Shown: piece by piece, positions 4,768 through 12,620 of the stretch
Numbering within the stretch: the first letter of the stretch is position 1
Layout of the letters: each line of letters opens with the position of its first letter
NCBI RefSeq assembly: GCF_002222635.1
Contig: NZ_CP022415.1
Coordinates: forward strand, 1,240,001-1,304,000
Length of the DNA stretch: 64,000 bases
DNA from: Pseudosulfitobacter pseudonitzschiae
Lineage (GTDB): Bacteria > Pseudomonadota > Alphaproteobacteria > Rhodobacterales > Rhodobacteraceae
Reading direction: 5' to 3'
Program-made: the position numbers and the translations under genes
The notes under the pieces: generated by a model
Database searches by the model: none
The model's input: the letters and a program-made list of their open reading frames with translations, nothing else
What the model was told of the DNA's origin: nothing

Positions 4768-6396
4768 CTAACGGAGGCCGCGATCAAACGTGGCGCTGCT
4801 GACACCTTGTTGCCTTAGGGTGTTCCGGGCGATTTTTTCCGTGGGCGTTCTTGGAAGCGGCGTATCGGTAATCTCGATGTAGCGTGGAACCATATGACGT
4901 GGCGCCAGTTTTCTGAAATGATCCAGTAGATCAATCGATTGGACGGCAGATCCTTCCCGCCGCAGGGCCACCAGCATGATGTCCTCTTCAGTGAATTCCG
5001 ATGGAATTCCAAACGCGGCGCTTTCAACGATATCCGGGTGTTTATTGGCAACCGTCTCCACTTCATAGGCGGAGATGTTCTCGCCACGCCGCCTGATCGC
5101 TTCGTTCAGCCGGTGTTTGAAATAGAGCCAGCCTTCTTCATCCATAAAGCCGGCATCTCCGGAATGATACCAAAGGTTCCTGAGCGTCTGCACCGTCTTT
5201 CCCTCCGCGCGGTAATAGCCGGAGAACATGCACCAGCTTCTTTTCGGGCGCGAGACGATCTCCCCCACCGCTCCCACCGGGAGCGGCCGGTCCTTTTCGT
5301 CGACGATCGCCACCTCCCAATCCGGGTGAGCGCGCCCACAGGATCCGGCCCGCGTTTCTCCCACCTTGTCCAATGTGACAAAGCCGGTTTCGGTCTGCCC
5401 GTACCCGGTGACGAGCTGTATGCCGAAGCGGTGCTCGAATGCCTTCTTGTCGGCAACCATGGGAATGCATTGACAGATCCTGGCAGGATTGGCGCCGTCG
5501 CTCTCGGACTTTGGCGCACGCATAAGAATGGTGGCCATGGCGCCCAGCAAATTTGTCGCCGTGGCGCCGCTGGTTCGGAGTTGATCCCAGAATCCCGACG
5601 CGCTGAAACCGGCCGCAAGCGTTGTCGGGGTGCCGTATATCAGCGGCAGGTAGACCCCGAACATCTGCGCGTCGGTGTGAAAGAGCGGCAGCGCCGAGAA
5701 ATAGCTGTCGCTGGTCGTATAGCCCAGGTTGTATGCCATCGCTGCCGCCCAAGCGTAGCAATGATGATGGGACATCAATACGCCTTTGGCCGGGCCCGTC
5801 GTCCCCGAGGTGTAAAGGATGGCCATCGGATCGGAATACTCCGTATTGGCCAGATCGAAATCCGGCTCCGGCTCAATACACTCCTCGAAAACGACGATCC
5901 GGTCGATCCTGATGCCGGCGGCGCGTGCCTCCTCCGGATCGGCTCCCACAGTAATCAGCGTCCGAAGATTCGGCAGGTCCTCCTGAACCTTTGCCAGCTC
6001 CGCAAATGCATCCGCGTCCGCGATGAGCGTTTCAGCGCCGCAATTGTTCAGGTTGTGGCAGAGAAGTTCACCCTTCAGGCCCGGGTTGTTCGGCACTTCG
6101 ATGGCGCCCACATTCGATATCGCGAACCACATCGCGACAAGTTCGAAACAATTGGGAAGCAGCATCGCAACGCGATCGGATTTCCCGACACCCAGTCTGC
6201 GTAAACCGCGCGCCAGGCGGCAGGACAAGAGCAGCATGTCCTCGAAACTGGCGGTCTGTCCGCACAGGTCGATGAACTGTTTTTTGCCAAAGCGTTCGGC
6301 CTGCTTCAGCAGGATTTTGGACAAGACCCGGTTTTCGATATCGCCGTCATGCTTGCCCGGGATATAGAGGGGTGAAGAGGCATCGACCATCGTCAT
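4768..6396 (-). CDS. Acyl-CoA synthetase (AMP-forming), candidate 2-hydroxyisobutyryl-CoA-type ligase
   Basis: This 542-residue enzyme activates a carboxylic acid to its CoA thioester through an acyl-adenylate. The adenylate-forming core motifs are all present: ILYTSGTTGPAKG at residues 193-205, YGQTETG in the middle, YHSGDAG, RRGENISAYEVE, and the C-terminal PRTPTEKIARN with the catalytic Lys. The overall style is CaiC-like (crotonobetaine/carnitine-CoA ligase group). It is the last gene of the operon, starting 7 bases after the crotonase stop. Known 2-hydroxyisobutyryl-CoA mutase clusters contain such a ligase to charge the acid before rearrangement. That role is inferred from the neighbours; the substrate pocket cannot be judged here. 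Confidence 0.85.
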   Translation of the reverse strand: MTMVDASSPLYIPGKHDGDIENRVLSKILLKQAERFGKKQFIDLCGQTASFEDMLLLSCRLARGLRRLGVGKSDRVAMLLPNCFELVAMWFAISNVGAIEVPNNPGLKGELLCHNLNNCGAETLIADADAFAELAKVQEDLPNLRTLITVGADPEEARAAGIRIDRIVVFEECIEPEPDFDLANTEYSDPMAILYTSGTTGPAKGVLMSHHHCYAWAAAMAYNLGYTTSDSYFSALPLFHTDAQMFGVYLPLIYGTPTTLAAGFSASGFWDQLRTSGATATNLLGAMATILMRAPKSESDGANPARICQCIPMVADKKAFEHRFGIQLVTGYGQTETGFVTLDKVGETRAGSCGRAHPDWEVAIVDEKDRPLPVGAVGEIVSRPKRSWCMFSGYYRAEGKTVQTLRNLWYHSGDAGFMDEEGWLYFKHRLNEAIRRRGENISAYEVETVANKHPDIVESAAFGIPSEFTEEDIMLVALRREGSAVQSIDLLDHFRKLAPRHMVPRYIEITDTPLPRTPTEKIARNTLRQQGVSSATFDRGLR

Positions 6397-6403
6397 GGGG
6401 CCG

Positions 6404-7153
6404 TCAGAATTCTTTTGCCCGGGCCTGGGACTCCGGAGTCAGAAAGCCGCGCACTGTGGCACTAGTCTCGAACGCCATGGCGTCCTCAAGGGAGGAATGG
6501 AAGCCTTCATTGATGGCGCGCTTGATGTCCGAAACCGCCCGGGCAGGGCGCGCGGTGATTTCCATCGCCAGCATTTCCGCCGCGCCCAAAAGTTCGGCCT
6601 CCGGGACAAGCTTCCACGCGATGCCGAGCTCGAGCGCCTTTCGGGCGTCGTGCCGTTCTCCCAGGATCATCAGTTCCTTGGCACTCTGCGGCCCGAGCTG
6701 TTTGGTCAGCAACGCCGTCACGCCGCCAGTCACGAACAGCCCGTAGGTAACCTCTGGAAAGAACCAGCGCGTATTGTCCGCGAACAGCCTGAAATCGCAG
6801 TTTATCGCCCATTCCAGAGCGCCGCCAACGCACCAGCCATGCACCGCGGCGATGACAATCTTCTGCGATTGCATGATCAGCAAGCTGATGTTCTGAATGG
6901 CCTTCACCCATGATTGCGCCGCCTCCTCGGAGTAAGTTTGCGCGTCGAGATCCTTGAGATCGTCCCCGGAGCAGAAGGCACGCCCCGCTCCATGCAGGAT
7001 GATGACACGGACGGCATCATCCGCTTCGGCGGCCGCAAGCGCATCCGCGAGTTCGTCCACAAGCTGCCGGTTCATGGCATTGAGTCGTTTGGGCCGGTTC
7101 AACCTGATCCAGGCAACGGCTCCGTGGTTTTCGGAAATGACTGCGGTTGTCAT
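6404..7153 (-). CDS. Enoyl-CoA hydratase/isomerase (crotonase) family protein
   Basis: A 249-residue crotonase-fold protein. The start at 7153 is chosen because GAGGAGG lies directly upstream; an in-frame codon six residues earlier would bury that site. The oxyanion-hole segment is AFCSGDDL near residue 60. Both catalytic glutamates of enoyl-CoA hydratase are kept: Glu114 in GGALEWAINCD and Glu134 in FFPEVTYG. Water addition or removal is therefore possible, which not all superfamily members can do. Placed 10 bases after the mutase gene, it could interconvert 3-hydroxybutyryl-CoA and crotonyl-CoA. In Rhodobacterales crotonyl-CoA can enter the ethylmalonyl-CoA pathway. The last step is inference. 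Confidence 0.85.
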   Translation of the reverse strand: MTTAVISENHGAVAWIRLNRPKRLNAMNRQLVDELADALAAAEADDAVRVIILHGAGRAFCSGDDLKDLDAQTYSEEAAQSWVKAIQNISLLIMQSQKIVIAAVHGWCVGGALEWAINCDFRLFADNTRWFFPEVTYGLFVTGGVTALLTKQLGPQSAKELMILGERHDARKALELGIAWKLVPEAELLGAAEMLAMEITARPARAVSDIKRAINEGFHSSLEDAMAFETSATVRGFLTPESQARAKEF

Positions 7154-11666: not shown

Positions 11667-11762
11667 TTCACAACCTCGCCAGAAACGTTGTTTTGAAATT
11701 AGCGGCTGGCGGAGATTCGGTAAAATTGATAATAATCGGATTCAGATATCGATGGAATTGAT
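11667..11762. promoter_or_regulatory. Divergent control region between dgdA and its LysR regulator
   Basis: The 96-base gap between the two divergent starts is AT-rich compared with the flanking genes. It holds the imperfect dyad ATCGAT-GGA-ATTGAT at 11749-11763, touching the LysR start codon. GATA and TATC further left form a looser dyad at 11729-11750. Such a site is where a LysR regulator usually binds to control both genes. No strong -35/-10 pair could be fixed in either direction. Confidence 0.45.
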
Positions 11763-12620
11763 ATGCCGACACTTCTTGATCTCAGGCTGCTGGCGACATT
11801 CGTCCGTGCGGCCCACTCCGGAACCCTGAGTGCGACGGCAGTTCAGGTCGGACGCACGCAATCGACGGTCACCATGCAGATACAGCGGCTTGAGGACGCC
11901 CTGGGCCAAAGCCTGTTTCACAGAAGTGGCAGCGGGGTCCGCCTTACCGGCAGTGGCGAGCGCTTCCTGGTGTATGCCGAGCGCATTCTCAGGCTTCACG
12001 ACGAGGCTATTTCGACGCTCTCGGACAAGGGACTGCACGGCTCGATAATCTTCGGATGTCCTGAAGACTATCTGATCGCATTCTTTCCAAAGGTCCTGAA
12101 AAGTTTCGGCACCCTGTATCCCGACGTCGAGATCAAGGTCGTCTCGGCGCCGACGGTTGAATTACACGCGCTTTTGCATGCGCGCCGGATCGATCTGGCG
12201 CTTGTTTCCACCCCCGACGCGGACAGCACGCAAAACGCAGTTCGGACCGAACCGCTGGTGTGGGTAGGCAGCAAACCGACGCTGGAGCTTCACGGTTTCG
12301 GTGACACGGTTCCGATGGCCCTTCCGGCATCGAATGCCATGGACCACAGGGCTGCCTGCGATGCGATGGCCCGGGCCAAATTGCAGTACAAGATAACATT
12401 TGCGAGCAACAGCCTTGCCGGATTGATAACCGTCGCGCGCTCGGGGCTGGCTATAAGCGTCATGACTCAGGAAGCCGTCCCGCCGGACCTGTTCATACTC
12501 AATGCGCCCCTGCCTCAACTTCCCAGGCTTGGCGTCATAATCTCCTTCGCTGAATCCAAGAGATCGCCAGCCGTCGACGCATTCGCCGCCCACATTCGAA
12601 ACCTTCTTCCTTTCCTCTAG
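11763..12620 (+). CDS. dgdR: LysR-family regulator (DgdR-like)
   Basis: A 285-residue LysR protein. The N-terminal winged helix-turn-helix at residues 1-62 reads LRLLATFVRAAHSGTLSATA then QSTVTMQIQRLEDALGQSLF. The type-2 periplasmic-binding-like effector domain extends to the end. Being divergent from dgdA reproduces the arrangement in B. cepacia, where DgdR represses dgdA and is relieved by 2-methylalanine. Here the target would be the whole six-gene operon, decarboxylase and mutase route together. A weak GGA precedes the ATG. The LysR family is certain. The DgdR name rests on gene order and partner and is held with moderate confidence. Confidence 0.8.
   Translation: MPTLLDLRLLATFVRAAHSGTLSATAVQVGRTQSTVTMQIQRLEDALGQSLFHRSGSGVRLTGSGERFLVYAERILRLHDEAISTLSDKGLHGSIIFGCPEDYLIAFFPKVLKSFGTLYPDVEIKVVSAPTVELHALLHARRIDLALVSTPDADSTQNAVRTEPLVWVGSKPTLELHGFGDTVPMALPASNAMDHRAACDAMARAKLQYKITFASNSLAGLITVARSGLAISVMTQEAVPPDLFILNAPLPQLPRLGVIISFAESKRSPAVDAFAAHIRNLLPFL

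Follow-up and report, generated by a model that had tools for sequence, protein, structure and literature searches.

The acyl-CoA mutases that depend on coenzyme B12 have a short list of known substrates, and the breakdown of 2-aminoisobutyrate is known to take place by decarboxylation or hydroxylation. Decarboxylation is the work of DgdA, whose gene we take to lie beside a divergent LysR gene, dgdR, in Burkholderia cepacia. DgdA is induced by 2-aminoisobutyrate and isovaline, and peptaibols containing both amino acids have been described (excerpt of PMC10169451). Catabolism through AibH1H2, the 2-aminoisobutyrate hydroxylase of Rhodococcus wratislaviensis, is non-decarboxylating, like the route proposed here, but starts with an oxygen-dependent hydroxylation rather than a CoA ester (PMC10401708, in part). 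The present text concerns an operon of Pseudosulfitobacter pseudonitzschiae (contig NZ_CP022415.1, positions 1,240,001 to 1,304,000; this whole stretch of 64,000 nucleotides is called the window) in which dgdA is followed by genes for a B12-dependent acyl-CoA mutase, a MeaB-type GTPase, a crotonase and an acyl-CoA ligase.

Two other described systems are close to this operon. The clusters for the 2-hydroxyisobutyrate route, known from Aquincola tertiaricarbonis and others (hcmAB, hcl, meaH) and containing 2-hydroxyisobutyryl-CoA mutase (HCM), carry hcl and usually a GntR gene (excerpt of PMC7176365). The window operon has the mutase subunits, the MeaB-type GTPase and Asp117 of the mutase in common with these clusters, whereas it has a LysR gene in place of GntR, an unrelated ligase, an added dgdA and crotonase gene, and a mutase altered at position 90 and at three further sites. 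The second system is the 3-aminobutyryl-CoA ammonia lyase (KAL) of Fusobacterium, which would act on an intermediate proposed below, and a homologue of which adjoins the same mutase in Peristeroidobacter soli. By eye, no B12 acyl-CoA mutase gene was seen in the Fusobacterium KAL neighborhood, and KAL is absent from the window operon.

Structure and conservation of the dgdA-mutase operon

The operon and its regulator gene occupy positions 4768-12620 of the window and comprise the following features:

4768-6396, minus strand: AMP-forming acyl-CoA ligase, 542 aa, not of the Hcl (PaaK-like) type (family and BLASTP searches)
6404-7153, minus strand: crotonase-family protein, 249 aa, with both catalytic glutamates (33 of 33 loci)
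7164-8855, minus strand: acyl-CoA mutase large subunit, 563 aa, proposed 2-aminoisobutyryl-CoA mutase (family search, alignment, tree)
8852-9853, minus strand: MeaB-type GTPase, 333 aa (NCBIfam cut-off passed)
9850-10332, minus strand: B12-binding small subunit of the acyl-CoA mutase, 160 aa (NCBIfam cut-off passed)
10329-11666, minus strand: dgdA, predicted 2,2-dialkylglycine decarboxylase, 445 aa (active-site residues Q52, W138, M141, S215, K272, R406)
11720-11765, no strand: conserved operator-like region, with GTAAAATTGATA at 11720-11731 and ATATCGATGGAATTGATATG at 11746-11765
11763-12620, plus strand: LysR regulator of DgdR type, 285 aa (relatives adjoin stand-alone dgdA)

These coordinates agree with those of an earlier, sequence-only reading of the same DNA, and the family searches bear out its gene identities; the gene order and tight spacing that it gave are also correct. 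Overlaps of 4 bases join dgdA to the B12 subunit gene, the latter to the MeaB gene, and MeaB to the mutase large subunit gene; gaps of 10 and 7 bases separate mutase from crotonase and crotonase from ligase, respectively, and 96 bases lie between dgdA and the divergent LysR gene. For the crotonase, the ATG at 7153 was chosen (the longer open reading frame starts at 7171). Between 4300 and 12900, neither promoter-like matches (2, against a shuffle mean of 2.7) nor terminator-like matches (6, against 7.4) are in excess, and no promoter-like site lies on the operon strand.

With the mutase as query against 84,980 species genomes, a scan that reaches close relatives only, at least 79 loci with a mutase were found, 31 of which have a mutase identity of at least 78%. 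Matches to the other six genes are present in 30 of these 31, the exception being a locus of P. soli (L026). When the 30 loci, two plasmid loci and the window were compared, all seven genes were matched in 33/33 loci, and order and orientation were the same in 32/33; in the non-colinear locus (L025) the ligase gene is inverted. An operon-type DgdA is found in none of the remaining 48 of the 79 loci (four have an aminotransferase at 32-33%), and a LysR match, at 28% identity, in one of them. Within the plasmid collection, the same 20 records hold the mutase (80-90%), dgdA (80-90%) and the ligase (60-80%). The pairing of dgdA with a B12 mutase is confirmed as a conserved, real operon. The earlier reading knew of no description of both in one operon, and searches of open-access PMC articles likewise yielded, among the matches listed, no description of a dgdA-mutase operon or of a 2-aminoisobutyryl-CoA reaction.

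Hosts of the operon are bacteria of soil and sea and include Mesorhizobium, Aminobacter, Shinella, Sinorhizobium, Labrys, Phyllobacterium, Brucella, Hoeflea and Roseovarius, among others. Among 295 sampled genomes of the window's own family, three mutase matches were obtained at E ≤1e-200, its own and two at 59-60%. The closest relative of the window mutase is that of Mesorhizobium loti (88%), with Roseovarius at 80% and Pseudogemmobacter at 78%. Rhizobiales-like bacteria are the probable donors of the operon. The mutase match of one of the 33 loci (L034, ~10001-11684) has stops in all three frames in that assembly, which may reflect an assembly error or decay.

The best solved relative of DgdA is 1d7r, dialkylglycine decarboxylase (E 7.5e-198; next family 2.2e-64). 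Six active-site residues given in an excerpt of PMC10169451 (Q52, W138, M141, S215, K272, and R406) are all kept in 33/33 loci, and DgdA is therefore likely to be a true decarboxylase, predicted to convert 2-aminoisobutyrate to acetone. Acetone carboxylase was considered as a general sink for this acetone and rejected: its gamma subunit (PF08882) occurs in 12 of the 19 genomes searched (two of the matches being weak, E 5e-7 and 7e-9) and was not found in the window genome.

The divergent dgdR-dgdA layout that the sequence-only reading had recognized was also upheld. A plasmid search with the LysR covered the best 40 of 57 records with a match, and the 20 matches listed below 60% identity (47-53%) stand next to a dgdA match in 20/20 cases. 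The window LysR is furthermore 48-51% identical to three LysRs beside stand-alone dgdA and, judged by these relatives, is of DgdR type and a putative responder to 2-aminoisobutyrate. The dgdA-dgdR homologues of B. cenocepacia and Agrobacterium fabrum resemble the window operon in the DgdA active-site residues and in a divergent LysR of one family. On the other hand, mutase genes are absent after dgdA at all three stand-alone loci examined, whereas the window operon has five more genes. An alignment of the 33 LysR-dgdA intergenic regions contains a common CATATCA, the half-site ATAtC, and TATCAAtTTTAC; in the window, ATATCGATGGAATTGATATG overlaps the LysR start codon. Similarly, the dgdA of A. 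fabrum is preceded by a matching operator-like stretch, TTGATATCGGAAT followed by TATCAATTT. A search of the window with the strict operator consensus gave no match, because the window copy deviates from that consensus.

A proposed CoA route for 2-aminoisobutyrate

The operon would degrade alpha,alpha-dialkyl amino acids (2-aminoisobutyrate and probably isovaline) under the control of its DgdR-type LysR, through two outlets. In the first, DgdA would decarboxylate part of the substrate to a ketone (acetone from 2-aminoisobutyrate), CO2 and alanine. In the second, the other five genes would retain all of the carbon: the ligase would convert 2-aminoisobutyrate to 2-aminoisobutyryl-CoA; the B12 mutase, made of two subunits and protected by MeaB, would shift the thioester group to a methyl carbon, giving 3-aminobutyryl-CoA; and the crotonase (a KAL-type lyase in a few hosts) would eliminate ammonia to yield crotonyl-CoA. 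The crotonase could then hydrate crotonyl-CoA to (S)-3-hydroxybutyryl-CoA, which a dehydrogenase and a thiolase would take to acetyl-CoA. We infer the substrates of the ligase and mutase, the deamination by the crotonase, the induction, and all of the reactions from gene content and sequence. That the amino acid itself is what enters the CoA branch, from 2-aminoisobutyryl-CoA through 3-aminobutyryl-CoA to crotonyl-CoA and ammonia, stands in our judgment at an even balance. The wider proposal, that the mutase is a 2-aminoisobutyryl-CoA mutase which turns an alpha- into a beta-aminoacyl-CoA ahead of ammonia loss, and that two operon types of separate evolutionary origin (dgdA-linked and KAL-linked) are built around it to handle quaternary amino acids like the ones in fungal peptaibols, is tentative and falls a shade short of even. 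One option in the sequence-only reading was that the ligase and the mutase take an acid derived from the same source compound; the shared source is retained here, with the amino acid itself in the place of the derived acid.

An amino substrate is favored because control is of DgdR type with dgdA in first position, because the ligase and several mutase residues are private to the operon and its clade, and because KAL homologues adjoin this mutase in L026 and two other mutases (L114 and L115). The best NCBIfam model for the ligase is PRK06155, an ATP-dependent acyl-CoA ligase (465 bits); as this is below the cut-off of 722, the model does not name a substrate. Ligase matches at 60-80% occur on plasmids solely in the 20 operon-bearing records, the other 26 being at 33-39%. 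The comparison cluster L087 consists of GntR, the B12 subunit, an AMP-binding protein, MeaB and the mutase, with no crotonase; it looks like an HCM cluster, with the ligase as its presumed Hcl. No BLASTP match at E 1e-3 connects the window ligase with the ligases of L087 or L074 (the latter a relative discussed below). Thus, where an HCM cluster has an Hcl-type ligase and usually a GntR regulator, the operon has an unrelated ligase and a LysR.

MeaB and the two subunits of the mutase score above their NCBIfam cut-offs, at a generic mutase-domain level that implies no substrate. A mutase tree (38 rows, midpoint root, with MUT_human on a very long branch) included 11 of the 33 dgdA loci and L026; these form a clade with 100/100 support and a stem length of 0.56, L026 lying inside it and L114 and L115 outside the HCM rows. 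For residue counts, 33 clade rows (32 dgdA loci and L026) were set against 51 others, leaving out the broken frame of L034, the copies L093 and L094, and matches of fewer than 480 residues. Residues are numbered as in the HCM and methylmalonyl-CoA mutase literature, and the positions named presumably line the active site. Position 90 is Val in 33/33 clade rows; the others have 45 Ile, 3 Phe, 2 Val (L036 and L074) and 1 Tyr. Consequently, the pair Ile90 and Asp117, presumed here to mark HCM, is present only in its second member. Three letters occur in 33/33 clade rows and 0/51 others: Leu in PTLLG, Pro in QADP (50 Ile and 1 Met elsewhere), and Asp in SGYHLSD (Glu in all 51 others). Methylmalonyl-CoA is disfavored as a substrate, since Val and Gln replace the Tyr and Arg of human MUT, which we take to be the substrate positions of methylmalonyl-CoA mutase. 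In the crotonase, two glutamates at what we assume to be the catalytic positions of enoyl-CoA hydratases are present in 33/33 loci.

KAL homologues were sought with model NF052388 (cut-off 160 bits). In P. soli, L026 holds the mutase (84%), B12 subunit and MeaB without dgdA or the operon's crotonase and ligase, and directly upstream of this module lies the gene of a 130-residue hotdog protein, which matches PDB 4mtu, beta-alanyl-CoA:ammonia lyase (E 2.3e-18), and shares 54.7% identity with a protein of Fusobacterium vincentii which, at 196.6 bits, exceeds the KAL cut-off. By eye, lysine-fermentation genes follow the F. vincentii gene. A 3-hydroxybutyryl-CoA dehydrogenase gene comes after the L026 mutase, followed by an opposite-strand gene for a 2-hydroxyacyl-CoA lyase. 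The KAL family is rare, being found in 1/398 sampled genomes of the phylum, 5/297 of the order around Mesorhizobium, 1/369 of the class of P. soli (P. soli itself), and 3/31 genomes reached from operon loci. The single match in the phylum sample sits on the same contig as L013, ~4.5 kb beyond its ligase gene, after genes for an AraC-type regulator, a short-chain dehydrogenase/reductase (SDR), a thiolase and a binding protein. Moreover, a mutase, B12 subunit, AMP-ligase, KAL homologue and MeaB stand in a row both in L114 (another contig of the L020 genome, 4081-9205) and, as a second run in P. soli, in L115 (6755-11736). Their mutases, at 46-47% identity to that of the window operon, have V90, D117 and TGLSTDFDLPTLLG in common with it; these operons, outside the HCM family, possibly represent a second kind of aminoacyl-CoA mutase pathway. 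Three other KAL matches (L117, L118, and L119) have no mutase in the stretches examined around them, and a fourth (L116), where no mutase was matched either, has as neighbors genes for MeaB and an adenosyltransferase-like protein and a broken ligase gene.

HCM descent and rival substrates

Several observations weigh against an amino substrate. The mutase clade falls within the HCM family, as sister to L036 and L074, and Asp117, the residue that we presume holds the 2-hydroxyl, is kept in 33/33 clade rows, as in HCM (47 Asp and 4 Ala among the others). L036 and L074 share both V90 and a crotonase; that of L074 is 51% identical to the window's and lies beside a ligase that shares 59% identity with the protein presumed to be the Hcl of L087, so V90 and the crotonase do not mark amino substrates. 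KAL is missing from the window genome and was found in 2/30 dgdA-operon genomes searched, one of them with the gene on another contig; in most hosts, deamination would therefore rest on the crotonase, and we know of no precedent for a crotonase deaminating. The L026 hotdog protein scores 135.7 bits and the L013 homologue (46% identical to it) 80.0, both below the KAL cut-off, and a control hotdog protein from Streptomyces, in a cluster with carrier-protein and ectoine-synthase-like genes, reaches 144.7, so that a KAL-like score alone is no proof of ammonia-lyase activity. L114 and L115 lack two of the three clade-specific letters, having Glu and Ile there. The 2-hydroxyacyl-CoA lyase of L026 scores 658 bits against a cut-off of 600 and would suit a hydroxyacid or acetone route in that organism. 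Finally, the operator-like stretch is present in 1/3 stand-alone dgdA promoters and is not visible in the Shinella and Marinibacterium copies.

Alternatively, the mutase could be an HCM acting on 2-hydroxyisobutyryl-CoA in a 2-hydroxyisobutyrate route. Its best solved relative is 4r3u, 2-hydroxyisobutyryl-CoA mutase (E 6.2e-219, compared with 1e-135 for human methylmalonyl-CoA mutase); it lies inside the HCM family and keeps Gln208 as well as Asp117, and the Hcl-type ligase and related crotonase of L074, together with the lyase gene near the L026 mutase, are in keeping with such a route. However, the operon has DgdR-type control and neither an Hcl-type ligase nor GntR, its mutase carries V90 and the three clade-only letters, an amino-acid-type binding-protein gene accompanies 26/33 loci, and KAL homologues are neighbors of its relatives. 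In addition, a crotonase would be superfluous past (S)-3-hydroxybutyryl-CoA and is absent from L087. We consider 2-hydroxyisobutyryl-CoA an unlikely substrate, though one to be taken seriously. The sequence-only reading had assigned this HCM activity and had suggested that the cell may treat alpha,alpha-dimethyl amino and hydroxy acids as one diet; both appear doubtful in light of the unrelated ligase, the DgdR-type LysR in place of GntR, the clade-specific residues and the KAL neighbors.

As for the sister clusters themselves, the L074 stretch (380-9997), like L036, is of HCM type with an Hcl-like ligase and a crotonase, and by eye has SDR, ferredoxin and P450-like genes; it may act in hydroxylating a branched compound. 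A protein search of the window genome for a second HCM gave one match at E ≤1e-200, the operon's own. Elsewhere in that genome (contig C5, 34000-50000, L102), a very divergent acyl-CoA mutase, whose substrate motifs are unlike those of both HCM and methylmalonyl-CoA mutase, was noted with a B12 subunit, a MeaB-like protein and a carboxylase-like gene.

The lyase gene near the L026 mutase also raises the question of whether acetone from DgdA is joined to formyl-CoA by 2-hydroxyacyl-CoA lyase, the mutase then isomerizing the 2-hydroxyisobutyryl-CoA formed. A three-enzyme acetone route with a thiamine diphosphate (ThDP) enzyme and a mutase has been proposed for sulfate reducers (PMC7888143, in part), and this lends the idea some precedent. 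Such a route would leave the ligase without a role, and we regard it as very improbable. As a general link between DgdA and the mutase it was rejected, the lyase family (E ≤1e-150) being found in 1/31 genomes, that of P. soli, and not in the window genome.

Gene surroundings and significance

Beside the operon, an amino-acid-type ABC binding-protein gene is found in 26/33 loci at 60% identity or more, an SDR in 13/33, a thiolase in 13/33, and an AraC-type gene in 18/33. Genes for the propionyl-CoA carboxylase alpha subunit, mutase and epimerase are present in 4/33 loci, with Shinella-type flanks. These last genes would suit a mutase that uses another branched acyl-CoA of the same diet, for instance one from a larger 2-hydroxy- or 2-amino-2-methyl acid such as an isovaline-derived C5 compound, with 2-aminoisobutyrate left to DgdA, and the smaller Val90 could fit a longer chain. 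The four loci have near-identical flanks, however, and nothing else points to C5, which makes this substrate rather improbable. In the window, positions 1-27000 were searched and contain no binding-protein, SDR, thiolase, AraC-type or propionyl-CoA genes beside the operon. Downstream of it (1013-3174), genes resembling those of a tripartite tricarboxylate transporter (TctB, TctC) and a GntR-type regulator were noted by eye, the TctB/TctC-like genes standing where other operon copies have the binding-protein gene.

On chromosome C3 of P. soli, a 55-kb stretch (977.5-1032.8 kb, L026 to L124) holds both mutase-KAL modules, together with a DgdR-like LysR (47% to that of A. fabrum), an amino-acid permease, and peptidases of families S8, M19, S15 (twice), S9, S58, M20 and, weakly, M1. 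TonB-receptor-like genes were noted there by eye. Such a gene set is in keeping with feeding on peptides in which unusual amino acids abound.

Should the mutase use 2-hydroxyisobutyryl-CoA, the operon would still be a conserved pairing that is apparently undescribed in the literature searched. If the amino-acid reading is true, the rearrangement of a CoA-linked amino acid would be an extra reaction for the B12 mutase family, and the persistence of a decarboxylase gene alongside a mutase in at least 33 loci would be accounted for. Bacteria could then also use every carbon atom of the amino acids in peptaibols.

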